A stretch of DNA of 64,000 nucleotides from Thermocrinis minervae (GTDB lineage: Bacteria; Aquificota; Aquificia; Aquificales; Aquificaceae). The number at the start of each line of letters is the position of its first letter. Within the stretch, counting starts at the first letter, position 1. Position numbers and translations under genes: made by a program. The stretch is from positions 228,486-292,485 of the forward strand of contig NZ_LT670846.1 of NCBI RefSeq assembly GCF_900142435.1. The letters are read 5' to 3'. The notes below the pieces were generated by a model. It made no database searches and was not told the DNA's origin. It was given only the letters and a program-made list of their open reading frames with translations. Positions 7,663 to 49,550 of this stretch are shown here, one piece after another.

Positions 7663-8026
7663 CATCTTCTTGGTATTCCTCTATGATTATATGCGTCCCT
7701 TGTTGGCCTTTGATGAACTTTTTAATGGTAGTTATCTTGTATATTTGACTGTCATTTTCTATAACACCTGCCTTCTCCAATACATCCCATAGACTTTTGA
7801 GCATGTTGTCTATGTCTCTTTTGCGCCTGTTTGGAAGTATAAAGGTTACTTGCATGCTTACGGGTTTGTTTATCTTCTCGCCGGTGTACTGCTGCTTTAT
7901 CTCCCATATAGCTCTCACTTCCCAGTTCTTTACGCGTGGTGGCTTGAACACCTTTCCTCCTTTCTTTCTTAAGTACCTGTTGCTCTTGGGAACAGGCAGG
8001 AAAGGTAGAGTCAGCTTTATCATCAC
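7652..8026 (-). CDS. rusA: RusA-family Holliday junction resolvase
   Basis: Dimeric Mg-dependent endonuclease resolving Holliday junctions. The 124-residue protein shows the RusA signature: basic N-terminus (KSNRYLRKKGGK), RRKRDIDNMLKSLWDVLEKAG with the key Asp residues (about 72-92), then IENDSQIYKI with another Asp (about 96) and a Lys-rich tail. RusA is often phage-borne, but no other phage gene is present here and codon use matches the neighbours, so this looks chromosomal. It overlaps the LysM/M23 gene convergently by 11 bp and starts inside the end of the DUF4149 gene (ATGA-like), so those two are co-transcribed. Confidence 0.85.
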   Translation of the reverse strand: MMIKLTLPFLPVPKSNRYLRKKGGKVFKPPRVKNWEVRAIWEIKQQYTGEKINKPVSMQVTFILPNRRKRDIDNMLKSLWDVLEKAGVIENDSQIYKITTIKKFIKGQQGTHIIIEEYQEDATV

Positions 8027-8415
8027 TTAAGCATTAGCCTGACACACAATCCAAAGGATGACAGGAGGTTAACGAGGTTTATGACCATGGAAACCCCATG
8101 CCAAAAGAGAAAGCGTTCGTAGTCTACCTGTTTTAAGTGGTGTGAGTAGGGTACTATGAAGAAGAGTTCCACAGCGGATGTAAGGAATACGAGCATAGCC
8201 AGAAGTAGGGCAACCTTATCCTGTTTGAAAAGTAAAAGGGAGGACACAAGGCCTACAACAAGACCAACCAAGAAGTAAACTGGGAAGATCTTTTCTACTA
8301 CAGAGCCGGCTTGGTCCTTTGTAAGCACTCTAAAAAGCGTAGGGGCTATGAAGAAGCTAAAAAAGGAACCAAGCCCTAGGTAGAAGGAGTTTATAAAGAG
8401 CAGAAAGTTCTTCAT
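8023..8415 (-). CDS. DUF4149 (TMEM205-like) membrane protein
   Basis: Function unknown. The 130 residues form four predicted membrane helices (about 3-27, 45-63, 68-90, 105-127). The FFIAPTLFRVLTKDQAGSVVEKIFPVYF segment near the N-terminus matches the DUF4149 pattern of small bacterial membrane proteins. It overlaps dapA upstream and rusA downstream by 4 bp each, so dapA, this gene and rusA form one operon. The polar segment SHHLKQVDYERFLFWHG near residue 92-108 faces one side of the membrane. Confidence 0.75.
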   Translation of the reverse strand: MKNFLLFINSFYLGLGSFFSFFIAPTLFRVLTKDQAGSVVEKIFPVYFLVGLVVGLVSSLLLFKQDKVALLLAMLVFLTSAVELFFIVPYSHHLKQVDYERFLFWHGVSMVINLVNLLSSFGLCVRLMLK

Positions 8416-9296
8416 ACTACTAAGGGTAAGTTATACTTTCTTAGTGTATCAAGGAGAAGCTTTTCATTCTCTGGCTTCATAGGACATAGAGGAAGCCTGA
8501 ACTCCTTTTCACACATGCCCATAGCCCAGCATGCAGTCTTTACAGGTATAGGGTTCGTCTCTATGAAGAGGACCTTAAACAGGTCGTACAGATAGTAATG
8601 CATCTGCATAGCTTTTTTAAAGTCTCCGGCAAGGGCATAGTCTACCATAGCCTTTACTTCCCTTGGCATCACGTTGCTGGCTACTGAGACTACCCCTTTT
8701 GCACCCAAGGCCATCATGGGAAGTGTAAGGGAGTCATCACCGGAGAGTATGATAAACTCATCACCCAGCTTTTTCCTGAGCTCGGATATGCGGTCCATGT
8801 TGGGGGTGGACTCCTTGGAGCCTATTATGTTAGGGCAATCCTTTACTAGCCTGTAGACGGTATCCACAGATATCTCAACTCCGGTCCTTGAGGGTATGTT
8901 GTAGAGGATTATGGGTATGTCTACTTCATCTGCTACGGTTTTAAAGTGTTGGTACAAACCTTCCTGCGTGGGTTTGTTGTAGTAAGGAACTACCAGAAGG
9001 CACGCGTCTGCACCTGCCTTTTTAGCGTAATAGGTAAGCTCTAAAGCTTCGTGGGTAGCGTTGGCTCCAGTTCCTGCTATAACTTTTATTCTTCCTTTGG
9101 CGTAGGCTACAGCTTCCTGTATAACCCTTTCGTGTTCTTCAAAGGTGAGCGTAGGGGATTCTCCAGAGGTCCCACATACTAGGATGGCATCTGTGCCGTT
9201 GTTCACGTGAAAGTCTATAAGCTTTTTAAGGCTTTCGTAATCTACATCACCGTCCTTAAAGGGTGTGATGAGTGCAACTATAGAGCCGTAAAACAT
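8412..9296 (-). CDS. dapA: 4-hydroxy-tetrahydrodipicolinate synthase
   Basis: Condenses pyruvate with aspartate semialdehyde, the first committed step of lysine/diaminopimelate synthesis. TIM-barrel product of 294 residues. Seen: N-terminal GSIVALITPF, the GTSGESPTLT substrate loop, LYNIPSRTG (catalytic Tyr) and IGSKEST (Schiff-base Lys). A longer frame opens at 9320, but the ATG at 9296 fits family length, avoids overlap with the upstream gene and has TATAAT 6 nt before it. Another lysine-pathway gene, dapB, lies at 23 kb in a different unit. Confidence 0.97.
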   Translation of the reverse strand: MFYGSIVALITPFKDGDVDYESLKKLIDFHVNNGTDAILVCGTSGESPTLTFEEHERVIQEAVAYAKGRIKVIAGTGANATHEALELTYYAKKAGADACLLVVPYYNKPTQEGLYQHFKTVADEVDIPIILYNIPSRTGVEISVDTVYRLVKDCPNIIGSKESTPNMDRISELRKKLGDEFIILSGDDSLTLPMMALGAKGVVSVASNVMPREVKAMVDYALAGDFKKAMQMHYYLYDLFKVLFIETNPIPVKTACWAMGMCEKEFRLPLCPMKPENEKLLLDTLRKYNLPLVV

Positions 9297-9302
9297 AACA
9301 AG

Positions 9303-9308
9303 ATTATA
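9303..9308 (-). promoter_or_regulatory. -10 element TATAAT before dapA
   Basis: TATAAT on the minus strand, 6 nt from the dapA ATG and overlapping the stop codon of the upstream fusion gene. It suggests dapA has its own leaderless promoter within an otherwise continuous run. Confidence 0.45.
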
Positions 9309-11766
9309 CCCTATATACATCCTCTATAGCCTTCTTTGTTTCTTGCACTATTTCCTCGTAGCTTTTACCATTTGGTTCTATCTTCCTGAGAAATCTAACC
9401 CTTATCTTATAAGGCTTAGGGAAGAAACTACCTATGGGCATAGCCTTAAAGGTACCTTCTATCACTACTGGCACTACTGGTACCGAAAGCTCTTTACTGA
9501 GTATGGCGAACCCCTTTTTGAAGGGCAGAAGTCTACCGTCTCTCGTTCTCGCACCCTCGGGGAATATGACAACTGTCTTACCAAGCTTTAAAAGCCAAGC
9601 GGTCTTCTGAAGAGACCCTTGAAGGTCCTTCTGTAGGTTAACGGTGATAACGTGCGCAAACCTTGCGAAGAGGGACCTTAAACTTCCTCGAAAGTACTCT
9701 TCTTCACCCAGAAAGTAAGTCCTTTTGGCCACATCTTCAGGTAGAGCGCTAAGTAGTACAAAACCGTCCAAATAGCTAGCGTGGTTGGGAGCTAGTATGA
9801 AACCGCCACTTGGTAAATTTTCTTCAAAACTCACTTCCAGCCTATTGTACAGCTTGAAAATTACCTTTAGGATCAATCTTCCTATGGATATAAACCTAGG
9901 ATGGCTTTCCACATGAAAAGGTTTACTTTCCTGTAGTATCTTTCCCCAATCTACACTGCTTGTATCCTTTTTAACAGAGTGGTTCTCTATGTATCTTATA
10001 AGGTCTTCAAACCTCATGAGCGTGGAGAGTTCTTCTTCGGTTATCTGAAGTCCGAAAGTGCTGTGTATGAAAGCTAGTAGCTCTACCTTTCCTAAAGAAT
10101 CAAGCCCTAGGTCTATCTCAAGATGGTCATCGGCGTAAGGTTTTTTCCCTGTTAAGGACTGTATGATACTTGAGAGGGCGTCTACATAAGGCCCCTTCAG
10201 TTCTCTTCTTTCTTTCTTCTCTTGGGTACTTTTGTAAATCTCCAGTAGCTTATACCTTTTTAGCTTTCCGAGCCTTGTCTTGGGAAGCTCCTCTTTTATT
10301 AACTTGTAGCCCACTACTCTCTTCCATTCGGGTAAACTTCTGTTGAAGGGATCTAAAACCTTCCACTTTATGTACTCTTCTATGTTTACTATACCCAGCT
10401 CTTTTAGTTTTTCCTCGTTTACTACTATAAGAGCGTGTAAACTACCGTCTATCTCAAGTATACCTACCTCCTTTATGAGACCCTTTGAGCTTTCTAAAAG
10501 ACTACTTTCCATTTCCTCTGGGTCTACTTTCTTACCACCTGAGAGGACTATTATCTCTTTTATCCTTCCGGTTATGTATAAGTAGCCTTCTGTATCCATA
10601 TAACCCAGATCACCCGTCATGAGATATCCTTCCTTAAAGACCTTATGTGTATCTTCTGGCTTGTTGTAGTAACCTACCATTACGTTTGGACCTTTTACCA
10701 AGATCTGACCATCTTCATCTATCTTTACGCTCACGCCTTTTATGGGTATGCCTACGGAACCGAGCTTTATCCTATTTGGTGGGTTGAAGGACACTATGGG
10801 TGATGTCTCTGTAAGCCCATAACCTTCTATGACTTTAAAGCCAAGCCTTGAGAAGAACTTTGCAGTTTTCAAGGGAAGCTTGGCGCCACCACTTACCATG
10901 AACCTCAGTCTACCACCAAAGGCCTTGTGAATGGGGGAGAAGAGTCTTTTCCTTGCAAAGGGTAGGGGGATAGAAAGGTAGTAAAGTGTTCTACCTAATA
11001 GGTTTGAGAAGAGCCGTTCCCTTAGTTTTGCTTCAAGCATTTGGTAAAGTCTCGGTACACCCACAAGGACAGTAGGTTTATAGTCTCTCATCGTATTGAG
11101 AAGCTCATCCGAACTTAGCTTCTCCAAAAACACCACGCTGGCGCCTATACTTAAGGGAACTAAGATCGTGGTCATAAGGGGATAAGAGTGATGGAAGGGA
11201 AGGATGGCTAGTGTTCTGTCTTTACTACCTACCAGGTTAAGCTCCTTTATGGCGTCTATGTTGGAAAGGAGGTTTTTAAAAGAAAGCATAACTCCTTTGG
11301 GATTTCCTGTAGTTCCAGAAGTGTAGAGTATCAAAGCTATCTCAGAAAGCTCTCTGTAGATTGCGTGTACGTTAGGTTTGGGTAGTACAAGCCTGTCAAA
11401 GTTTATAAGCTCTAAATCCTTTGCAACCCTTCTTATCTTTTCCTCCGTATGGTCTGAGCAGAAGACTACAGCAGGTTTTACCTCCTGGAGTATGTATAAC
11501 AGATCTTGTTCTTCTATGAGGAAGTCTATGGGTACGGCAGTACCACCTCTGGACCATATGCTGTACAGGGCATAAATCCACTCTGGTCTATTTTCCGATA
11601 CTATGGCCACAGGTTTTCCAAAGAGTGGCTCAAACAGACTTGCGTAGGAGTTTATGTTATCTACAAGTTCCCTGTAGGATATTTCCTCTCCTTTGTGAAT
11701 GAGTGCCACGCTTTCGGAGGCTTTTGGTTGTGGAAGTACAAGCCTCCTTTCAGGGTCATACTGCAT
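9304..11766 (-). CDS. acyl-AMP ligase / acyl carrier protein / acyltransferase fusion
   Basis: An 820-residue three-domain protein. Residues 1-510 are an AMP-forming fatty-acid ligase: TSGTTGNPKG (about 148), GYGLTETSP (about 312), and YMTGDLGY-type and GRIKEIIVLSGGKKVDPEE motifs. Residues about 525-595 are an acyl carrier domain with LGLDSLGKVEL, its Ser (about 556) being the expected phosphopantetheine site. Residues about 630-815 are a PlsC-type lysophospholipid acyltransferase with NHASYLDGF (His about 661), FPEGARTRDG (about 734) and VPVVPVVIEGT. Inferred role: activate a free fatty acid, tether it to the built-in ACP and transfer it to a lysophospholipid or glycerol phosphate. E. coli Aas has the catalytic domains in the opposite order and no ACP. 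It follows guaB with no gap. Confidence 0.85.
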   Translation of the reverse strand: MQYDPERRLVLPQPKASESVALIHKGEEISYRELVDNINSYASLFEPLFGKPVAIVSENRPEWIYALYSIWSRGGTAVPIDFLIEEQDLLYILQEVKPAVVFCSDHTEEKIRRVAKDLELINFDRLVLPKPNVHAIYRELSEIALILYTSGTTGNPKGVMLSFKNLLSNIDAIKELNLVGSKDRTLAILPFHHSYPLMTTILVPLSIGASVVFLEKLSSDELLNTMRDYKPTVLVGVPRLYQMLEAKLRERLFSNLLGRTLYYLSIPLPFARKRLFSPIHKAFGGRLRFMVSGGAKLPLKTAKFFSRLGFKVIEGYGLTETSPIVSFNPPNRIKLGSVGIPIKGVSVKIDEDGQILVKGPNVMVGYYNKPEDTHKVFKEGYLMTGDLGYMDTEGYLYITGRIKEIIVLSGGKKVDPEEMESSLLESSKGLIKEVGILEIDGSLHALIVVNEEKLKELGIVNIEEYIKWKVLDPFNRSLPEWKRVVGYKLIKEELPKTRLGKLKRYKLLEIYKSTQEKKERRELKGPYVDALSSIIQSLTGKKPYADDHLEIDLGLDSLGKVELLAFIHSTFGLQITEEELSTLMRFEDLIRYIENHSVKKDTSSVDWGKILQESKPFHVESHPRFISIGRLILKVIFKLYNRLEVSFEENLPSGGFILAPNHASYLDGFVLLSALPEDVAKRTYFLGEEEYFRGSLRSLFARFAHVITVNLQKDLQGSLQKTAWLLKLGKTVVIFPEGARTRDGRLLPFKKGFAILSKELSVPVVPVVIEGTFKAMPIGSFFPKPYKIRVRFLRKIEPNGKSYEEIVQETKKAIEDVYRV

Positions 11767-39979: not shown

Positions 39980-40219
39980 TTAAAAGATACTTCCCTTCAA
40001 CCTGTTTATATTGACCATAGTTTGGGCCATCTGAAGCTTTTTTTCTTCCGTTTGCTGAATAAGAAAATTAAGAAGGTTTAAACACTCTTTAGCCTCTTCC
40101 AAGGTAAGGTTTTTAAAGTGTTCCTCCGAGAGGCTTTTAAGTTTGGATATAGCTTCTTCCCACTTTTCTTCTTTGATCAGCAATTGGCATTCTAGTAAGA
40201 GTGCTTTAAGGTTTTCCAT
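39980..40219 (-). CDS. small helical protein, FliT-like by position
   Basis: A 79-residue all-helical, Lys/Glu-rich protein (KEEKWEEAISKLKSLSEEH, QQTEEKKLQMAQTMVNINRLKG). Sequence alone does not identify it. Its place immediately after fliS (14-bp overlap), after fliD, matches fliT, which encodes the chaperone of FliD, and its size and helical character fit. I therefore suggest a FliT-type export chaperone on context, with moderate doubt. Confidence 0.5.
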   Translation of the reverse strand: MENLKALLLECQLLIKEEKWEEAISKLKSLSEEHFKNLTLEEAKECLNLLNFLIQQTEEKKLQMAQTMVNINRLKGSIF

Positions 40220-40589
40220 AGTGTTCTTTTTCCACGTCCTCCCAAGCAGACTTTAGCTCCCAGAGGACCTTTATCATCTTCTCTAACGTCTCGGGGTCAT
40301 CTTGTAAAGAAAGCCTCACAAGATCGTTGCTTAAAGCCTGATAGATTTCTCTCAGATTCTTGGCTATCTCTCCACCCTTTTCAAGGTCTAGAGTACTGTC
40401 CAAGACTGTTATTATCTCCTGGGCTCTTCCAAGATTTTCAAGTTTCTCTTTTAATTCTTCGGGAGATTGTTCTCTCTTTCGAGATATATCAAGGGCACTT
40501 TCTAAACATGCTATGGCCTTTTCGTACAGAAGGATCACAAGCCTTACGGGGTTTGAGGTCATTACCATGTTCTCAAGGTATGCGTTCAT
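40206..40589 (-). CDS. fliS: flagellin export chaperone FliS
   Basis: Cytosolic chaperone that binds the flagellin C-terminus before export. The 127 residues match FliS: N-terminal MNAYLENMVMTSNPVRLVILLYEKAIACLESAL (family pattern YxxxxV.TA.P..L...LYDGAI..L..A), four helices, and AQEIITVLDSTLDLEKGGEIAKNLREIY in the middle. It overlaps fliD by 4 bp and the fliT-like gene by 14 bp. It is part of the fliC-flaG-fliD-fliS unit. Confidence 0.93.
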   Translation of the reverse strand: MNAYLENMVMTSNPVRLVILLYEKAIACLESALDISRKREQSPEELKEKLENLGRAQEIITVLDSTLDLEKGGEIAKNLREIYQALSNDLVRLSLQDDPETLEKMIKVLWELKSAWEDVEKEHYGKP

Positions 40590-41908
40590 CCTTTACCTCC
40601 TTGCATCTGAGACAGCGTAACTATAAAGTCCTGAAGCCTTTGTTTTATGTTGTTCGCCTGGAGCATAAAGGCTTCTACCTTAGAAAACTCAAGTCTTAGA
40701 CTTTCTTCTTCCTTAGCAAGCTGCTGTGAGATCTCTTCGTATCTTTTCTGCAGGCTATATATCCTTGACTGATACTCACCTATCAAGGAGTTAAAAAAGT
40801 TGGACTGTTTTGAGAGATAGTTAGAGAGGGCATCCTTTAAGCGTGTTAGCGTATTATACACGTTATTTCTATCACTGTTCATTAGGCTGCTCAGCATATC
40901 TGTGTTTAGTGAGGCTGTACCGTCTTCATTGTAGTTTATGATTCCCATTCTTACGAGTGGATCTAAGAGTGTGCTTAGGTCTGTAAGGATTCCCCTGACT
41001 ACAGAGTTACCCTGGAAGGGTGCATTCAGTCCTGTGGCCTCAGAGACCTTTTTAACCACATCGTTGTAGGCTTTTAGCACAGAGTTTAAGAAGTCTGTCA
41101 CCTTGGAGTTATCTTCTTGTATGCTGACGTTGCTAGAGCCTACAGACTTGGCCGTTATGCTAACCCCTGAAAACACGTTACTGAAGGTGTTGGAAGGGTT
41201 GCTTATGGGTGTTCCAGAGCCTATCTGTATTTGAGCGTTCTGAGCTCCTTGGATGAGAAGGTTATAACCAAACTGGTATGGCAGGTTTCCCACGAGATGT
41301 ATCGCTTTTGTACTAAGGTCAGGAGCTGTCTCTACGGTGGAGTTTGCCTCATCCGTTTCAGAAAGCATGAGCTTGTAATTAGTCCCGTCGTAATAGACAG
41401 AAGCTTTTACGTAATTTTGAACGGAGTTTATCTTGTTTACTATATCTTGGAGTGTGTCGGTACTGTTGTAGGATATGGTAAAGTCCTTGTAGTCCGTGAG
41501 TGAGGTGTAGTACCTGAGGGTGAAGGTCCCTGAAGTGCCTATATTCTCTGTGAGTGAGGAGAAACCATTTCCGTAAACGAGGATTTCCTTCTGTGCAAGT
41601 TTGTTTACATTCACGGAAAAGTTTATGTCTGGTGCATCCTGGGATACATTGACAGAGATAACATTTGGATCGGATACGTCAGCCTTCTTTGCTCTGAAAA
41701 GATCGTCTATGTTTACACCGCTTATGGTAGAGCTAAAAGCTGAGAGGGAAGAGGCTATGCCTGAGAGTATATCCTTTTGTTGAGAATACTGTTGAGTCTG
41801 CTTTTGTATATCTTGCAGAGGCTTAGACTTTAATTGGATTATCTGGTCTATTATCGACCCCCAGTCAAATTGGCCTGTTACGTTGCTAAGGTAGAACTCT
41901 CCAGCCAT
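40586..41908 (-). CDS. fliD: flagellar filament cap protein FliD
   Basis: Hook-associated protein 2, which caps the filament and helps flagellin fold. About 440 residues, usual for FliD. The N-terminal domain includes GQFDWGSIIDQIIQLKSKPLQDIQKQ, a central beta region follows, and the C-terminal coiled coil (about 385-435, QSRIYSLQKRYEEISQQLAKEE then FMLQANNIKQRLQDF) is typical. The frame also opens at a GTG one codon earlier (41911). The ATG at 41908 has AGGAGG 5 nt upstream and overlaps the flaG stop. Confidence 0.93.
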   Translation of the reverse strand: MAGEFYLSNVTGQFDWGSIIDQIIQLKSKPLQDIQKQTQQYSQQKDILSGIASSLSAFSSTISGVNIDDLFRAKKADVSDPNVISVNVSQDAPDINFSVNVNKLAQKEILVYGNGFSSLTENIGTSGTFTLRYYTSLTDYKDFTISYNSTDTLQDIVNKINSVQNYVKASVYYDGTNYKLMLSETDEANSTVETAPDLSTKAIHLVGNLPYQFGYNLLIQGAQNAQIQIGSGTPISNPSNTFSNVFSGVSITAKSVGSSNVSIQEDNSKVTDFLNSVLKAYNDVVKKVSEATGLNAPFQGNSVVRGILTDLSTLLDPLVRMGIINYNEDGTASLNTDMLSSLMNSDRNNVYNTLTRLKDALSNYLSKQSNFFNSLIGEYQSRIYSLQKRYEEISQQLAKEEESLRLEFSKVEAFMLQANNIKQRLQDFIVTLSQMQGGKG

Positions 41909-42264
41909 CACTCCCTCCTCTCTAAGAGTATACCAAGCATCTGGTCTATTTTTTTCATGAGTTCAAGAAGGTACTCTGGAGGTATCTGCCTTATCACCTC
42001 GTTTGTCTCTATGTTTATGATCTTTACCACTGGTATTTCAAGGTCTTTGTCTATGTCTATCTTGAGTTGTATATTGAAGTAATCAAGCTTCCTTCTTATT
42101 TCTTCCAGGATCTTTTGCAGCTCTTCTGTGCTGAGATTTCTGGTTTTCTTTTCATCCGTGATGATTTCCCCTGGTATATTCTGAACAGGAGGTTGGGGCG
42201 CAGGGCGATTATCCATCTGGGGCAGGGTTTGTGGATTAAACATATTAACTTTACCTACCTCCAC
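41908..42264 (-). CDS. flaG: FlaG-family flagellar protein
   Basis: Small protein of filament gene clusters that influences filament length. The 118 residues have a disordered Pro/Gln-rich N-terminus (NPQTLPQMDNRPAPQPPVQN). The FlaG domain follows (about 50-110: LNYFNIQ-type LDYFNIQLKIDIDKDLE, then VVKIINIETNEVIRQIPPEYLLELM), with the conserved VIRQIPPE signature. It lies between fliC and fliD, the standard position. Confidence 0.93.
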   Translation of the reverse strand: MEVGKVNMFNPQTLPQMDNRPAPQPPVQNIPGEIITDEKKTRNLSTEELQKILEEIRRKLDYFNIQLKIDIDKDLEIPVVKIINIETNEVIRQIPPEYLLELMKKIDQMLGILLERRE

Positions 42265-42318: not shown

Positions 42319-43857
42319 TTATCTGAGCAGTTGCAGTACCAGTTGAGGAAGTTGGTTTGCCTGTGCTAGCATAGCTATGGAGGATTGCATTTTTATCTGT
42401 AGGCTTGTGAAGTTTGACATCTCCTGAGCATAGTCCGTGTTACGTATGACGTTCTCCGCGTTCTTCGTGTTGTCGTAAGCCACGTTTTGGGCATCGTATA
42501 TAGACTGTAGATTGTTCATGACTGCGCCTATCTGTGCCCTTATAGTATCGGCCTTCTGTAGTGCTTTTTTCACTATCAGGAGTGCCCTTTCCGCGCCCGC
42601 GTTAGTAGAAACGTTAATTGAGTAGAGATTGTTAAAGGTTGCGTTCAGGTTTGCATCCGCCGTTCCATTTGTCCCTACTATATCCACCCCGTTTTCATTG
42701 ACCACAAAAGGATTGGAGCTGTAAATGCTGAGCTGACCTATTTTTACGGCGTAAGCTGAACCACCGTTTGTAACACCGGTTACGCTTGTAGCACCTTCCA
42801 GCAGTTGATCAAAATTTATGGTGGCCGTTCCAGAGCCAGTGTAGGAAGCTTCTATGGCTATGGTTTCTCCGTTGGTGGTCTTGAGGACCAACTTTCCGTT
42901 ATCTATGGAGGCGGTTACGGGAGCGTTTGCAGCCGATGCCGCTGCGTTGATCTGTGACACCAAGTCGTTGAGCGAAGTGTTTGCGGTTATACCCGTTACA
43001 CTGAAGGTGGGTGTACCAACAGTGGCCTGACCTATGTAAAAGTTGAGGTTAACAGTTCCAGGGCTTGTAGCGCTTGTTTCTGTAAACACGCCTGTAAAGG
43101 TGGCTGCTGTGCTTTGGTTTTTAGCGACGGCCTCTATGCCCATAGCTTGAAGCGATGCATCATTGTTTATGTTTTGGACAGCTGTGGCAGCATCTACAAG
43201 GTAAACGTTGGTGCTGTTGTTATAAAGAACCGTTTTACCCCCAACCCTTAGATAATCCCCACTGTCAAGGGTGTAAAGTGTTCCGGTGAGGCTTGTAAGA
43301 CTACCTGTGCCAGAAGTTACTCTACCGGTTCCATCTACTATGTAAGCACCCAAGGACTGAGCCCTTAAGTCGCCTATGGATACATTTACCACCTGCCCAT
43401 ACCTAGGCCCGTAGTGGATGTACTTATTTTGGAATGTACCATCAAGCAGCTTTATTCCGTTGTATTCAGTGTCCGTACCTATCTTCTGGATGGCATCCAC
43501 AAAGTTCATTATCTCTTGCTGTAGTGCTGCTCTGGCGTTTGGATCGTTTATGTCGTTGGCAGCTCTTCCAGCCCTTGCATAGATCTCGTTGAGCTTATTG
43601 AATACCTGTCCTGCGCTGTTTTCCGCTATGGTAAGAGCAGATATACCCGTCTGGATGTTAAGGTTTCCTGTCTGAAGACCAGAAGCCACTATGGCAAGCT
43701 GGTCAGCCACGAAAAGGCCAGCTGAGTCATCGGATGCATTGAGGATCCTTAATCCTGTAGAGAGCCTAAGCAAAGATTTGTTCATCTCCCTCTCCGTCTG
43801 GAGTAGGGAGGTGTGTGTTACCGCTGATTCATAGTTGAAGTTAATCCTCAGCGCCAT
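42319..43857 (-). CDS. fliC: flagellin
   Basis: Structural subunit of the flagellar filament, 512 residues. The conserved D0/D1 ends are clear: N-terminal YESAVTHTSLLQTEREMNKSLLRLSTGLRI, ASDDSAGLFVADQLA, and ARAALQQEIMNFVDAIQKIGTDTEYNGIKLLDG; C-terminal QIGAVMNNLQSIYDAQNVAYDN, then SSIAMLAQANQLPQLVLQLLR. The central region (about 175-400) is Thr/Ser/Asn/Gly-rich and variable, a good candidate for surface glycosylation. A sigma-28-type promoter precedes it and AGGAGG lies 7 nt before the ATG. The N-terminus resembles Aquifex flagellin. Confidence 0.98.
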   Translation of the reverse strand: MALRINFNYESAVTHTSLLQTEREMNKSLLRLSTGLRILNASDDSAGLFVADQLAIVASGLQTGNLNIQTGISALTIAENSAGQVFNKLNEIYARAGRAANDINDPNARAALQQEIMNFVDAIQKIGTDTEYNGIKLLDGTFQNKYIHYGPRYGQVVNVSIGDLRAQSLGAYIVDGTGRVTSGTGSLTSLTGTLYTLDSGDYLRVGGKTVLYNNSTNVYLVDAATAVQNINNDASLQAMGIEAVAKNQSTAATFTGVFTETSATSPGTVNLNFYIGQATVGTPTFSVTGITANTSLNDLVSQINAAASAANAPVTASIDNGKLVLKTTNGETIAIEASYTGSGTATINFDQLLEGATSVTGVTNGGSAYAVKIGQLSIYSSNPFVVNENGVDIVGTNGTADANLNATFNNLYSINVSTNAGAERALLIVKKALQKADTIRAQIGAVMNNLQSIYDAQNVAYDNTKNAENVIRNTDYAQEMSNFTSLQIKMQSSIAMLAQANQLPQLVLQLLR

Positions 43858-43892: not shown

Positions 43893-43919
43893 AAATCGGT
43901 ATTAAACGGGAATTTTTTA
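43893..43919 (-). promoter_or_regulatory. sigma-28 (FliA) promoter of fliC
   Basis: On the minus strand TAAA is followed by 15 bp and ACCGATTT, against the consensus TAAA-N15-GCCGATAA. The core CCGAT and the spacing are exact. The leader to the ATG at 43857 is about 30 nt and carries a strong SD. Confidence 0.8.
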
Positions 43920-43925
43920 AGTGTT

Positions 43926-43931
43926 TATAAT
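43926..43931 (+). promoter_or_regulatory. -10 element TATAAT before the GT/methyltransferase fusion
   Basis: Perfect hexamer 12 nt before the ATG at 43944, placed just beyond the -35 of the divergent flagellin promoter. The two promoters therefore overlap. Confidence 0.4.
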
Positions 43932-43943
43932 TTACAAAGCACC

Positions 43944-46088
43944 ATGTTAGTCGTGCGGGTAAAAACGGGAGGGAGGTTAAACTTCAACGGTTACTCCTTT
44001 GATCTCAAGCCAGGACAAAGGTTACTCTTCGCTAAGGATGTGTTTAACTTACTTAAGGAAGATTACAAGAGATTATTCGAAGAGGATAAGCTTGACCTCC
44101 CTCCTGTATACAGGGGTGAGAACTTAAACGGTAAAGTCCTGTTTGTCTTCATGCAAGGAGCCATAGGAGACGTGTTGTGTTCTACAGTAGCGTTGAGGGA
44201 GATAAAAAGACGTTACCCTAGGATGAAGCTGTGGGTGGCAGTATCTGGCAAGGCAAAACCTATCCTGGAAGATCTTCCTTATGTAGATAGACTACTACCG
44301 CATCCTACCCCACTTTCTGAGGTGAAAAAGGCGGACTACATGGTGAAGGCTGTAGAGATGGTGGGTGGTCCCCAGTTTGACAGTCTTAACATGGTGGAAT
44401 ACTTCCTTTGGAAGTTTTATCTGTATCACGCGCAGGACGAAACGCCAGACGTGGTAGTAAAGGAAGACATAAGAAGAGAGCTAGAGCCCATCTTTGAAAA
44501 GATAAGGGAGATCTCAGGTGGTAAGAAGGTTCTGCTTTTTCACTACCTTGCTTCTTCAGTCCACAGAACTCTGCCACCTAAGCTTTTGAAAGACCTCCAA
44601 GAACTTATAAGAGATGAGTACATACCCGTTGTATGTTCTTTACCGACAGAGGACATAACGGTGAACGTATCCTTTGAGCTTTACGGTATACAGGCTGTAA
44701 ACCTCTCACCCTACATGAAAACCGTAAAACATCTTATAGCTGCTGTCTCTCTCTCCGATGCGGTGGTAACTGCTGACACGTCAACGTTACACATAGCTGG
44801 AGCTCTCAAAAAGCCTACTGTTCTTATAAGTGGTCCTGTAGAACCTTATAATACCGCCGGTACGTATCCTACGGTCATACCGGTGAGGGCCAACTACACG
44901 GGGCAGACTTGCAGAGCACCGTGTGGTATACATGCCATCGCAGAGCCGTGCAACGAAGCAAAGCTTTTGGGAAAGTACTACAGTCCATGCCTTGAAAGTA
45001 TCCCATCCAAGGTTATAGCCCTGGCCCTAAAGGATGCTCAGCTCCTTTCGCAGGAGGATTTTCCAAAGCCCGAGGTATGCCCCGTGTGTGAACATACGGG
45101 AAGCTTTCACCTTTTTGAAGTTATAAACGGCCACAGGATCTTTGAATGTCCTTCGTGTGGTCTACAGTTCGCCCATCCTCTGAAGGCGATGGATTACGAA
45201 AAGGCATACGAAGGGAAGTACGAAGACCTGCTTAGCTTTACTAACATACCGTACGAGTCCTACACAAAGGTTTCTACTGCTCGGGAGGAGATAGAAAGAT
45301 GGTCTGCCCTCCCACGTATAAACGTGCTTTTGCCCATACTCTCTGTGCTCCCCAAGGGTAAACATCTGGACGTGGGTTGTAGTACTGGGTTTTTTATGCT
45401 AATAGCCAAGAAGTACGGCTTTGAAAGCTACGGTTTTGATGCTTCAGAAAAGGCGGTGAAGATAGCAAAGGAAAGGTTCAACCTTAGGGTTGTAAAAGCC
45501 TTTACCTTTAAGGATCTTCCCGAAGACTTTAAAGGTCCTTACAAGCTCATAACTGCCTTTGAAGTCTTGGAGCACCTAGAGGACCCTGTGGGTTTCCTAA
45601 GAGAGGTATACTCCATGCTGGAAGAAGGCGGATTATACCTCATGAGCTGTCCACCATACTTTAAGTTTGAAAACACCGCACTAGGATACAGAAAGTACAA
45701 GTGGTGGTATGGAGACTATCCTCCAAACCATCTTACGCGATGGAAACCTTGGACATTGCACTATGCTCTTAAAAAGGCTGGTTTTGACGAAGTCATCATA
45801 TTTACTGAGCCTCTTATACCTGGTACTGTCCTTGAGGGTATAACACCGCCCGAGGTGATTCTTCAAGATCAGAAGCTGGGTAATATAACTATTCCACGCA
45901 GCACGGTAACCCAGCTGATCATAAACACTCTTAAGCCTCTATACCTGAACTCAAGACTTTTGGGAAATTTTCAGTTCGCTATAGCCGTTAAAGGAAAAAG
46001 TGATATAGACTGGGAAAGGGTTGTAAGCAGGGCCATAAGGCTTTCTGCAGTGGAGATCATATACAATAGGGATGACCTCATTCTATGA
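43944..46088 (+). CDS. glycosyltransferase (GT9-like) / zinc ribbon / SAM methyltransferase fusion
   Basis: A 714-residue protein of three parts. Residues about 64-345 resemble heptosyltransferase-type GT-B enzymes (family GT9): VLFVFMQGAIGDVLCSTVALREIKRRYP near 68-95 and DAVVTADTSTLHIAGALKKPTVLISG near 273-298. Residues about 377-412 form a zinc-ribbon-like CPVC...CPSC pair. Residues about 440-690 are a class I methyltransferase: LDVGCSTGFFMLIAKKYGF (about 473), YGFDASEKAV and ITAFEVLEHLEDPVGFLREV. Such zinc-ribbon methyltransferases often act on sugars or glycan ends. It is divergent from flagellin with an 86-bp gap. A role in making a methylated flagellin or surface glycan is inferred from position. 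Confidence 0.82.
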   Translation: MLVVRVKTGGRLNFNGYSFDLKPGQRLLFAKDVFNLLKEDYKRLFEEDKLDLPPVYRGENLNGKVLFVFMQGAIGDVLCSTVALREIKRRYPRMKLWVAVSGKAKPILEDLPYVDRLLPHPTPLSEVKKADYMVKAVEMVGGPQFDSLNMVEYFLWKFYLYHAQDETPDVVVKEDIRRELEPIFEKIREISGGKKVLLFHYLASSVHRTLPPKLLKDLQELIRDEYIPVVCSLPTEDITVNVSFELYGIQAVNLSPYMKTVKHLIAAVSLSDAVVTADTSTLHIAGALKKPTVLISGPVEPYNTAGTYPTVIPVRANYTGQTCRAPCGIHAIAEPCNEAKLLGKYYSPCLESIPSKVIALALKDAQLLSQEDFPKPEVCPVCEHTGSFHLFEVINGHRIFECPSCGLQFAHPLKAMDYEKAYEGKYEDLLSFTNIPYESYTKVSTAREEIERWSALPRINVLLPILSVLPKGKHLDVGCSTGFFMLIAKKYGFESYGFDASEKAVKIAKERFNLRVVKAFTFKDLPEDFKGPYKLITAFEVLEHLEDPVGFLREVYSMLEEGGLYLMSCPPYFKFENTALGYRKYKWWYGDYPPNHLTRWKPWTLHYALKKAGFDEVIIFTEPLIPGTVLEGITPPEVILQDQKLGNITIPRSTVTQLIINTLKPLYLNSRLLGNFQFAIAVKGKSDIDWERVVSRAIRLSAVEIIYNRDDLIL

Positions 46089-46767
46089 GTTCAAAGATCT
46101 TGAAGTTTCTAATGCTCAGATGAACAGAGTAAAGCACTGGGAGGTATGCTCTTAGGTTGTAGTAGTAGAGCTTCTCCGGCGGCATACTTTTTAAAGCATC
46201 CACGTTGGTTATGAGGATGTTTTTAAACTCTGCTTTACCCTTGCTTGTTTCAACCGTTAGGTTAGTGTTCACAAGGAGATTATCTTCCACGAGAGTTTTA
46301 ACAAACTCCATGGCCTGAAGAATATCCCTTCCAAACTCGGTGAGCTTGTTTTTAATGTCCTGAAGGTACTGAGTTTCGTTTCCCTCTTCATCGAAAAGCC
46401 TTTGACCTTCTTCTGAGTATGCTGCCTCGTCCACAACTACAATCCCACTCTGGTCGTCTTCCAAAGAAAGTCCAAAAGGGTACAGGTCTATGGCCTTCGG
46501 TATGACGTCTACCTTCCATCTTCCTTCTTTGTCTACGAAGAAGTTTCTACCTATGCCAAGTAGGGCAAAGGGGAATAGTCTGTCTCCTGACTTCCCAAAC
46601 ATTACGGGGAAGTACATGCTGCAGGCCAAAAGTTCAGAAAAGCCCAAGGAAACTATGTCCACATCCCTCGCAAAGGAGTAATCTGTCCTTTCAGATACTT
46701 TAAAGTCTGCGTGTACCTTTTGGTCTAGAACCGCAGGCTTTTTGAAAGCCTTATGAATTAAGTTCAT
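46078..46767 (-). CDS. SapC-family protein
   Basis: Member of the SapC family, named after a Campylobacter S-layer locus gene; molecular role unproven. The 229 residues show the family course: DYSFARDVDIVSLGFSELLACSMYFPVMFGK (about 28-58), PFALLGIGRNFFVDKEGRWKVDVIPKAIDLYPFGL (about 66-100) and a charged DEEGNETQYLQDIKNKLTEFG region. There is no signal peptide. It follows epmA with a 4-bp overlap and ends 11 bp inside the convergent fusion gene. Position between a surface-glycan-type gene and lipid genes suggests an envelope role. Confidence 0.78.
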   Translation of the reverse strand: MNLIHKAFKKPAVLDQKVHADFKVSERTDYSFARDVDIVSLGFSELLACSMYFPVMFGKSGDRLFPFALLGIGRNFFVDKEGRWKVDVIPKAIDLYPFGLSLEDDQSGIVVVDEAAYSEEGQRLFDEEGNETQYLQDIKNKLTEFGRDILQAMEFVKTLVEDNLLVNTNLTVETSKGKAEFKNILITNVDALKSMPPEKLYYYNLRAYLPVLYSVHLSIRNFKIFELIE

Positions 46768-47609
46768 ATGACAATCCCATCATAACCCTTAAGGACGCTA
46801 AAGAGTCTCTCAAGCCCTATGGAACATCCTGCACATTCTGGCATATCCTCGTAAGCCCTGAGGAGTTCTTCGTCCATGGGAAGGTTCCCCCTCCATAGCT
46901 CCATCCTCCTCTTTATCTCCTCTTTATCTGTCTCCTCCGTCCAACCGTTGGCTATCTCAACACCCTTTATGTAGAGCTCAAACCTTTCCGCGTAGCCATT
47001 CCTTATCTTGGCGTAGACGCACAGCCTTTTTGGAAAGTCCTTCAGGAAGGTAAGCTTGTCTTTTCCAAGCTGTCTCTCTACGTCTATGTATATCCTGTAG
47101 AAAAGGGTCTCCCAGTCTTCCTTGTCATCAAACTCGTACCCGTAAGCCATGAGGTTGTTCTTGAACACCTCTTCGTCCTCTGACAGTATTATTCCTGCGT
47201 ATTCTTCGAAGGCTCTTTCCACGCTTATGCTTTCCCAATCAAGCTCGTAGCCTAGGTACCTTACGAGGTCTGTAATCTCTTGCATGAGGTAGTTGTAATC
47301 CTTTCCTACCGCGTACCATTCAAGCATGGTAAATTCCTTTCTATGCCACTTTCCCACCGGATCATCTCTGAATACTTTGGCTATCTGGAATATGTCCCTC
47401 TTTAGGATACTCAGGAGCTTTTTCATGTAAGGTTCTGGGGAGGTTTGAAGGTAATAGGTTTTTCCACCTATCTCTAGGCTTATGGGTTTTACGTTTGGGT
47501 CTATGTTTGGATACTCTAAAAGCACTGGAGTGTGAACTTCAAGGTATCCCCTTCCTTTGAAAAATTCCCTCACTCTGTCTATGAAATCCGACCACTCTTT
47601 GGTAAGCAT
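46764..47609 (-). CDS. epmA: EF-P lysine lysyltransferase-like (EpmA/GenX/PoxA)
   Basis: Lysyl-tRNA-synthetase-like enzyme that attaches (beta-)lysine to elongation factor P. The 281 residues carry class II synthetase motifs: motif 1 region FFKGRGYLEVHTPVLLEYP, motif 2 FRDDPVGKWHRKEFTMLEWYAVG (about 101-123) and motif 3 AGCSIGLERLFSVL (about 258-271). There is no anticodon-binding domain, as expected for EpmA. It is shorter than the 325-residue E. coli enzyme. No efp or epmB is in the window. It lies 1 bp after fabH and overlaps sapC. Confidence 0.85.
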   Translation of the reverse strand: MLTKEWSDFIDRVREFFKGRGYLEVHTPVLLEYPNIDPNVKPISLEIGGKTYYLQTSPEPYMKKLLSILKRDIFQIAKVFRDDPVGKWHRKEFTMLEWYAVGKDYNYLMQEITDLVRYLGYELDWESISVERAFEEYAGIILSEDEEVFKNNLMAYGYEFDDKEDWETLFYRIYIDVERQLGKDKLTFLKDFPKRLCVYAKIRNGYAERFELYIKGVEIANGWTEETDKEEIKRRMELWRGNLPMDEELLRAYEDMPECAGCSIGLERLFSVLKGYDGIVI

Positions 47610-47610
47610 G

Positions 47611-48534
47611 TTAAAACCTCATGAGGACGGCTCCCCACGTGAGGCCTCCACCCATGGCAGTCATAAGCAACGTATCTCCTCTCTTTAACTTCCCCTCTTT
47701 GTAAGCTTCATAAAGAGCTATGGGTATGGATGCGGCACTCGTGTTTCCATACCTGTGTATGTTGGAGTAGATCTTTTCAAAGGGTATGCCTAACTTTTCC
47801 GCTAAAGCTTGTACTATCCTTATGTTTGCCTGGTGGGGCACCACAAGGTCTACATCTTCAACGGAGATGTTAGCCTCTTTTAGTACTTGCCTGCACGCCT
47901 CTTCCATGCTACGCACGGCTACCTTAAACAGTTCTCTACCTTTCATCTGGATGTGTCCGCACTTTTCTGCAAAGAGGAGTTCCCACAAGCTTCCGTCCGA
48001 GTAGAGCTTGGACGTGTACAGACCATCTTGGCTCTTCTCTACTACTGCAGCACCAGCTCCGTCTCCAAAGAGCACGCATGTGTTCCTGTCCTGCCAGTTT
48101 ACTATAGTGGAGAGCTTTTCAGCACCTACGACCAGGGCCTTATTTACTTTTCCAGAGACAAGGTAAGAATGAGCAACATCCAGGGCGTACAGAAAGCCGC
48201 TGCATGCGGCAGAAAGGTCAAAGGCAAAAGCTCTTTTTGCAGAAAGCTCTGCCTGAAGTAGACATGCTGTAGCAGGAAAGGTCTTGTCTGGGGTAAGCGT
48301 GGCTACAAGGATAAGGTCTATCTCCTCGGGATCTGTGTTGGCCATTTGGAGGGCCATAAGGCTTGCCTGCTTTGCCATGTAGGTTAGAGTTTCATCTTGG
48401 GCTATCCTCCGCTCCTTTATACCCGTCCGTGTGGTTATCCAATCGTCGGATGTATCCACCATTTTCTCAAGGTCAAAGTTGGTAAGCACCTTTTCGGGTA
48501 AGTAGACCCCGAGTCCTGAAATCCTTATGCCCAT
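47611..48534 (-). CDS. fabH: beta-ketoacyl-ACP synthase III
   Basis: Initiates type II fatty-acid synthesis by condensing acetyl-CoA with malonyl-ACP. The 307 residues have the Cys-His-Asn triad: Cys in DLSAACSGFLYALD (about 112), His in VPHQANIRI (about 236) and Asn in NIHRYGNTSAASIP (about 266). An N-terminal ISGLGVYLPEKVLTN and C-terminal AMGGGLTWGAVLMRF match the family. It overlaps plsX by 10 bp. PlsX-FabH pairing is classic and supplies acyl chains for phospholipids. Confidence 0.97.
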   Translation of the reverse strand: MGIRISGLGVYLPEKVLTNFDLEKMVDTSDDWITTRTGIKERRIAQDETLTYMAKQASLMALQMANTDPEEIDLILVATLTPDKTFPATACLLQAELSAKRAFAFDLSAACSGFLYALDVAHSYLVSGKVNKALVVGAEKLSTIVNWQDRNTCVLFGDGAGAAVVEKSQDGLYTSKLYSDGSLWELLFAEKCGHIQMKGRELFKVAVRSMEEACRQVLKEANISVEDVDLVVPHQANIRIVQALAEKLGIPFEKIYSNIHRYGNTSAASIPIALYEAYKEGKLKRGDTLLMTAMGGGLTWGAVLMRF

Positions 48535-49550
48535 GAAGCTTTAGCTCCTTCTGGCATGAACTTCTTCATATTGGAGGCTAATTTTTCATTGAAGTGATGG
48601 GTGTAGAACTCTGTGGCTACCTTTATGGCGTTTTTTATAGCCTTTGCGTTGGCTCTTCCGTGTGTGATTATAACAGGCTTTTTTGCTCCGAGCAGCGGTA
48701 TTCCGCCATACTCGGTAAAGTCTGCCTTCTTCTTGAAGTTGTTAAGAGCTGGCATAAGCAAGAAGGCACCTATCTTAGCCAGAAGGCTCTTCTTGATCTC
48801 CTCTTTTATCATCTGGACTACTGCCATGCCTAAGCTTTCGCTCGCCTTTAGTATTATGTTTCCTACGAACCCATCGCACACTATTACATCAAAGGTACCC
48901 GCGTATATGTCCCTTCCTTCGGCATTCCCTAAGAAGTTAAGGCCAAGCTGCTTTAGGAGTGGATAAGTCTCTTTAACTAGCTCGTTGCCCTTACCTTCCT
49001 CCTCACCTATGCTTAGAATCCCAACCCTCGGGTTTTGTATACCCAGTATCTCCTCTGCGTATGTATGTCCTATTATGGCAAATTGTACAAGGTGCTTTGG
49101 TTTACAGTCAACGTTTGCACCTACATCTATTAAAACTGTCTTACCCTTTGGGTTTGGCAAGGCTACACCTATGGCTGGTCTTTCTACCTCTTCTATGGCT
49201 CCTATGACAAACTTACCGACCGTGAGGACAGCACCCGTATTACCTGCAGAAACGAGACCGTCGGCCACTCCATCCTTTACTAGCTTCCCGGCTATGTAAA
49301 GAGAAGACTCCTTTTTCTTAAGCACGTTAGAGGGTGGCTCGTGCATACCGATGGTGTCCTTTGCATGCACTACCACGAGTCTTTCGTCCTTTACTCCCTC
49401 CCTCTTTAGTATCTCCTTTATCCTCTGCTCGTCTCCCACCAAGAATATGGTTTGTGCAAACTCTTTACTTGCCCATATACATCCCTTTACTATCTCCTCG
49501 GGGGCGTAGTCTCCCCCCATACAGTCTACAGCTATCTTGGGAAGACTCAT
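48525..49550 (-). CDS. plsX: phosphate acyltransferase PlsX
   Basis: Converts acyl-ACP to acyl-phosphate for glycerol-3-phosphate acylation by PlsY. The 341 residues match: N-terminal IAVDCMGGDYAPEEIVKG (about 6-23), LVSAGNTGAVLTVGKFVIG (about 99-117), VLIDVGANVDCKPKHLVQFA and VCDGFVGNIILKASE (about 230-244). It overlaps rpmF by 4 bp and fabH by 10 bp. The operon order rpmF-plsX-fabH is common in bacteria. Confidence 0.97.
   Translation of the reverse strand: MSLPKIAVDCMGGDYAPEEIVKGCIWASKEFAQTIFLVGDEQRIKEILKREGVKDERLVVVHAKDTIGMHEPPSNVLKKKESSLYIAGKLVKDGVADGLVSAGNTGAVLTVGKFVIGAIEEVERPAIGVALPNPKGKTVLIDVGANVDCKPKHLVQFAIIGHTYAEEILGIQNPRVGILSIGEEEGKGNELVKETYPLLKQLGLNFLGNAEGRDIYAGTFDVIVCDGFVGNIILKASESLGMAVVQMIKEEIKKSLLAKIGAFLLMPALNNFKKKADFTEYGGIPLLGAKKPVIITHGRANAKAIKNAIKVATEFYTHHFNEKLASNMKKFMPEGAKASWA

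Follow-up and report, generated by a model that had tools for sequence, protein, structure and literature searches.

Maf is a known flagellin glycosyltransferase. Where Maf is absent, Caulobacter uses FlmG, a soluble cytoplasmic flagellin glycosyltransferase that has a GT-B domain and an N-terminal TPR flagellin-binding domain, with pseudaminic acid as its sugar (PMC7591256). TibC/AAH, of the heptosyltransferase-type GT-B fold, also acts directly on protein, its substrate being an autotransporter (PMC4358343). In Geobacillus, a single polypeptide, WsaE, both transfers and O-methylates sugars of an S-layer protein glycan (PMC2943079), and the flagellin glycosylation islands carry separate methyltransferases (PMC5109656). 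A first-pass annotation of the DNA described here had called the union of glycosyltransferase and methyltransferase in one protein unusual; WsaE gives such fusions a precedent (PMC2943079), but the literature searched holds no paper on this particular fusion or its linkage to SapC, nothing relevant on SapC with flagellin or GT9 enzymes with flagellin, and no functional SapC paper.

The window, by which we mean the whole stretch of Thermocrinis minervae DNA that was analysed (64,000 nucleotides), contains one open reading frame that joins a GT9 glycosyltransferase, a four-cysteine ribbon and a class I methyltransferase, as the first-pass annotation had proposed; from the comparisons below, it probably encodes a previously undescribed flagella-decorating enzyme. 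Its parts are as follows.

43944..46088, plus strand: gene for the GT9 - Cys4 ribbon - methyltransferase fusion, 714 aa, from open frame, domains and homologues
43944..44123, plus strand: N-terminal small beta domain, residues 1-60, predicted strands at 2-6, 10-14, 17-21 and 26-29
44124..45038, plus strand: GT9-like GT-B domain, residues 61-365, from Pfam, PDB profile, Foldseek and site table
44910..44990, plus strand: cysteine cluster C323/C327/C336/C349 in the glycosyltransferase C-lobe, a putative metal site (alignment, site table)
45069..45179, plus strand: CxxC-x19-CxxC ribbon, residues 376-412, with C379/C382 and C402/C405, between the two enzymes
45321..45803, plus strand: class I SAM-dependent methyltransferase domain, residues 460-620, from motif I and Methyltransf_23
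45804..46085, plus strand: C-terminal extension, residues 621-714, with the N-terminus the most variable part of the fusion (site table)

Both enzyme domains are recognized by Pfam above the curated cut-offs: Glyco_transf_9 (PF01075) at residues 191-323 (E 1.3e-6; 28.4 bits against a cut-off of 22) and Methyltransf_23 at residues 470-615 (E 1.6e-20; 73.9 bits against 27). The ribbon, by comparison, gave only sub-threshold matches, with no Pfam zinc-ribbon model over its cut-off. A profile built from 13 glycosyltransferase parts of the fusion family matches both lobes of the solved GT9 heptosyltransferases 1psw and 3tov, and the PDB profile search also returned 2gt1 (GT9). The structure model is of moderate confidence (mean pLDDT 65.5); it supports the methyltransferase fold and the GT9 fold (Foldseek to 3tov, 1.1e-7) but no finer claims.

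Full-length homologues are found in 29 genomes including its own, in Aquificota, Nitrospirota and Desulfobacterota (28 besides its own), and since the complete architecture recurs in three phyla the fusion is real and no artefact. The residues that define the GT9 part (G75-D76, H200, S204-S205, R208, D278-T279 and H283) are invariant in 29/29, forming an N-lobe GD, the pattern H200-x3-SS-x2-R208, and a C-lobe D278-T-x3-H283 (DTxxxH), and all four ribbon cysteines are likewise kept in every homologue. SAM motif I, which reads LDVGCSTG in the window, is kept in 28 of the 29; it is varied yet recognizable in the Aquificota genus g10 and lost in the Desulfobacterota homologue at L039 (genome G142; 8001-10031), where the GT9 part and ribbon are intact. 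Loss of the methyltransferase motif beside an intact glycosyltransferase suggests that glycosyl transfer is the core activity of the fusion. The C323-C349 cluster is absent from the two most distant homologues, and residues 1-60 show 40-57% identity among close ones (site table).

At an E value below 1e-25, the fusion was called in 7 of the 136 Aquificota genomes surveyed: its own, G023 (66% identity) and five of g10 (32-34%). It is carried by 11 of 296 sampled Nitrospirota genomes (59-63%) and, at full length, by 8 of 395 sampled Desulfobacterota genomes (58-63%), with two more at 31% and L039 as a ninth close case; genomes within one phylum are related, so that these counts overstate independence. 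In the tree, the Thermocrinis protein and that of G023 group with the Desulfobacterota proteins (support 98/98 and 94/95), away from other Aquificota, which points to transfer of the fusion between phyla.

The first-pass annotation had named both immediate neighbours of the fusion gene, flagellin on its divergent side and SapC on its convergent side, and Pfam agrees with each.

42319..43857, minus strand: fliC, flagellin, divergent from the fusion gene (Flagellin_N 4.5e-32, Flagellin_C 1.4e-17)
40206..42264, minus strand: flaG, fliD and fliS, after fliC (FlaG 4.2e-22, FliD_N/FliD_C, FliS 4e-29)
46078..46767, minus strand: SapC (PF07277, E 9.3e-48), convergent with the fusion gene, stop codons overlapping
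43893..43919, minus strand: sigma-28-like box of fliC, TAAAAAAT-11-ACCGATTT, scoring 10/16 against consensus, 35 nt from the ATG
43926..43931, plus strand: TATAAT 12 nt before the ATG of the fusion gene, a possible -10 box giving a near-leaderless transcript

The fusion and fliC promoters had also been said to overlap. In favour of this, fliC orthologues have boxes at a distance from the ATG similar to the 35 nt of the window, several scoring better and one (G742) perfect, and a similar TTTATAAT stands at the place of the TATAAT in the nearest homologue (L040; G023); against it, the 10/16 score of the window's box is equalled in about half of shuffles, and no sigma-70 pair for the fusion gene reached the scan threshold, with no -35 found. 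Overlap is possible, but it makes a weak argument, and one the flagellar case does not need. Control of the fusion gene by sigma-28 was considered, and the promoter scan found no such box before it in any genome scanned. On the other side, the end of a gene for a class II lysyl-tRNA-synthetase-like (EpmA-like) protein (46764-49550), itself downstream of fabH- and plsX-like genes, overlaps the SapC start codon, so SapC of the window may be co-transcribed with the EpmA-, fabH- and plsX-like genes.

Linkage of the fusion to flagellar genes and to SapC is kept across three phyla, and the survey of fliC neighbourhoods that the first-pass annotation had called for bears out the flagellar association: of the 29 homologues, 18 have flagellar genes at their locus, and 8 further ones adjoin SapC with no flagellar gene in view. 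Eleven of the 18 are the Nitrospirota homologues, in every one of which fliW lies directly 5' of the fusion gene (in L033, L034, L037 and L038 the run upstream is flgA, H, I, J, N, K, L); the other seven (G000, G023, G138, G561, G533, G742 and G588) have fliC within about 8 kb. One of these, the Desulfobacterota genome G742, repeats the layout of the window in order and directions (SapC> <GT-MT fliC>). SapC adjoins the fusion in 14 of 29 (G000, G023, the five g10, G138, G561, G498, G660, G461, G533 and G742), and in the five related g10 genomes the SapC/fusion pair is far from fliC. Counted by lineage, 6 of 9 outside Nitrospirota have fliC no more than about 8 kb away (rough chance 8e-11, ~1e-10) and 7 of 9 have SapC at 2 kb or less (rough chance 3e-12 for at least 6 of 9), both chance figures being orders of magnitude.

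SapC is found in 7/7 Aquificota carriers against 19/129 non-carriers (Fisher p 4.5e-6, five of the seven being one genus) and in 7/7 Nitrospirota and Desulfobacterota carriers tested, and flagellin is present in 7/7 carriers tested outside Aquificota. Judged by neighbourhood and co-occurrence, SapC is a real, conserved partner of the fusion gene, and comparative genomics gives strong support to a link between the fusion and flagellin. The structure model of SapC is unusable (mean pLDDT 41.8) and no fold was inferred from it. A second SapC paralogue, seen in the Thermocrinis genome (C1:1353186; L147 4948-5685) and in a related Aquificaceae genus (L148 4953-5657), has an N-terminal C-x4-C-x3-CC motif that is absent from the flagellar SapC and might coordinate a metal or an Fe-S centre. 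Thermodesulfovibrio-type genomes have a separate short GT9 gene that converges on SapC (L143 5575-6411; L145 5566-6423) or, at L038 10081-10947, on the fusion gene.

In other Aquificaceae (L105, L112, L113 and L114) the gene beside fliC is ~645 aa long, and the two scanned are Maf; other Maf genes adjoining fliC were confirmed at L121 and L123, and in some Aquificaceae this slot comes with sugar-biosynthesis genes. The fusion thus occupies the place taken in relatives by a flagellin glycosyltransferase. No Maf_flag10_N gene was found in the Thermocrinis genome. The idea that Maf and the fusion exclude each other across Aquificota was considered, and the pattern is not significant (0/7 against 28/129, p 0.34); G139 has both Maf beside fliC and the fusion.

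Other GT9 proteins point in a similar direction. In g10, 5/5 genomes have a GT9-like paralogue of 988-1039 aa lying ~50 bp beyond a type IV prepilin gene (L045 7749-11161; L122 12024-15665; L051, L052 and L054), suggesting a pilin glycosyltransferase, and in G466 (L215) a GT9-only homologue is part of a glycosyltransferase gene group beside fliC; together these suggest that the wider GT9 clade serves filament subunits. The composition of the flagellin contributes little: its Thr/Ser/Asn-rich middle had been offered as an argument by the first-pass annotation, and at 22.5% S+T it is ordinary among relatives. Flagellins of carriers do have more S+T than others (0.25 against 0.21, p 0.0005), a difference confounded by phylogeny, the window's own value being 0.225.

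We consider it fairly likely that the fusion is a soluble cytoplasmic flagellin-glycan enzyme in which GT9 adds a sugar, the methyltransferase caps it, and SapC is a partner. The fusion would modify flagellin in the cytoplasm, ahead of export, the GT9 part moving a sugar from a nucleotide-sugar to Ser/Thr in the variable domain of flagellin or to a sugar already present. ADP-heptose is what GT9 enzymes use wherever the donor is known, and by analogy with these characterized enzymes it would be the most likely donor here; a gene resembling a heptose kinase (RfaE domain I) occurs in 7/7 genomes, scoring above the curated cut-off in 4 of them. The methyltransferase, tethered via the Cys4 ribbon, would then cap that sugar by SAM-dependent methylation, and SapC would serve as a further modifying factor, or else as a substrate or chaperone protein. 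It is plausible for one protein to add a sugar and to methylate that sugar as well, given that 28 of the 29 homologues have two apparently intact active sites. The glycan may also be sulfated, given the sulfotransferase genes (Pfam) near the fusion or SapC in G742 and G681 (L211 5387-6250; L213 287-1147); a similar-looking gene is at L039 13435-14277.

The closest characterized GT9 members are LPS heptosyltransferases, and the fusion could instead act on a glycan of the cell surface, be it LPS core, O-antigen or a different polysaccharide, its adjacency to flagellar genes reflecting a shared surface programme of thermophiles. Two homologues, G613 (L207) and L039, are exceptions to the flagellar pattern that lie in sugar-gene clusters without fliC (a third exception, G681, is on a short contig), and in the genome of L039 two SapC genes adjoin fliC at another locus (L128), followed by further genes including one of the NeuB family. 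The Thermocrinis genome also has a free-standing ribbon-methyltransferase paralogue (C1:844952-845635; L044 8944-9891) in a region that has glycosyltransferases and genes resembling rml, with flagellar hook-type genes on its flanks. We nonetheless regard this explanation as unlikely: the linkage to fliC, fliW and SapC survives rearrangement in three phyla, and the Thermocrinis genome has four other, separate GT9 genes. The first-pass annotation had named homologues consistently beside LPS core genes instead of flagellin as the pattern that would speak against it, and no LPS core locus adjoins the fusion among the homologues inspected.

Methylated flagellins are known in general, and the Methyltransf_23/11 family matches leave the substrate of the methyltransferase unfixed, so that it might act on side chains of the flagellin polypeptide and the two domains make two separate flagellin modifications. 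We think this quite improbable, as the free-standing ribbon-methyltransferase paralogue sits in a glycan-type region and Foldseek matches the fusion to the sugar C-methyltransferases KijD1, TcaB9 and MtmC, although many other class I methyltransferases match equally well or better. Most improbable of all is a role in flagellar regulation or assembly, like that of its neighbours FliW and FliS, with the enzyme domains secondary. Such a role would suit the position right after fliW that every Nitrospirota homologue has, but a scaffold would have no need of the catalytic motifs of both enzymes that are kept in 28/29. The flagellin-glycan reading, that of the first-pass annotation, is probably right, and the evidence for it is now better than that first offered.

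If this is true, one more enzyme class would join the short list of those that glycosylate flagellin directly, the SapC family would gain a testable role, and there would be a hint at how thermophile flagella are modified; the linkage pattern leads to simple predictions on flagellin mass. More tentatively, Maf and FlmG may be joined by a further class of cytoplasmic flagellin glycosyltransferase: a protein O-heptosyltransferase derived from GT9, with its own capping methyltransferase, SapC-assisted, in thermophiles of three phyla, with sister GT9 proteins for type IV pilins.

Compared with known systems, the fusion resembles Maf (PF01973/PF20157) in its place, which is that of Maf beside fliC in other Aquificaceae, and in the predicted cytoplasmic modification of flagellin, but it has no Maf domain (no Pfam match to MptE-like or Maf_flag10_N) and belongs to fold family GT9, whereas Maf has no methyltransferase. 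Like FlmG it has a GT-B domain and would be a soluble flagellin glycosyltransferase of the cytoplasm; it differs from FlmG in having no TPR (no Pfam match) and in having a methyltransferase. With TibC/AAH it shares a heptosyltransferase-type GT-B fold and an N-terminal beta domain (PMC4358343). The four cysteines in its glycosyltransferase C-lobe may be a counterpart of the TibC iron finger, but they are separated by 3/8/12 residues in the fusion and by 2/15/11 in TibC (PMC4358343), and PDB sequence and profile searches with the fusion matched LPS heptosyltransferases and not TibC. The GT9 fold and motifs are those of WaaC/WaaF (1psw, 2gt1), from which the fusion is set apart by scores that are weak and fall well short of the equivalog cut-offs, by its extra domains and by its flagellar context. 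WsaE differs in having two rhamnosyltransferase domains, an N-terminal methyltransferase and a glycan built on a lipid carrier (PMC2943079). By the features tested, the fusion is not Maf, FlmG or TibC.
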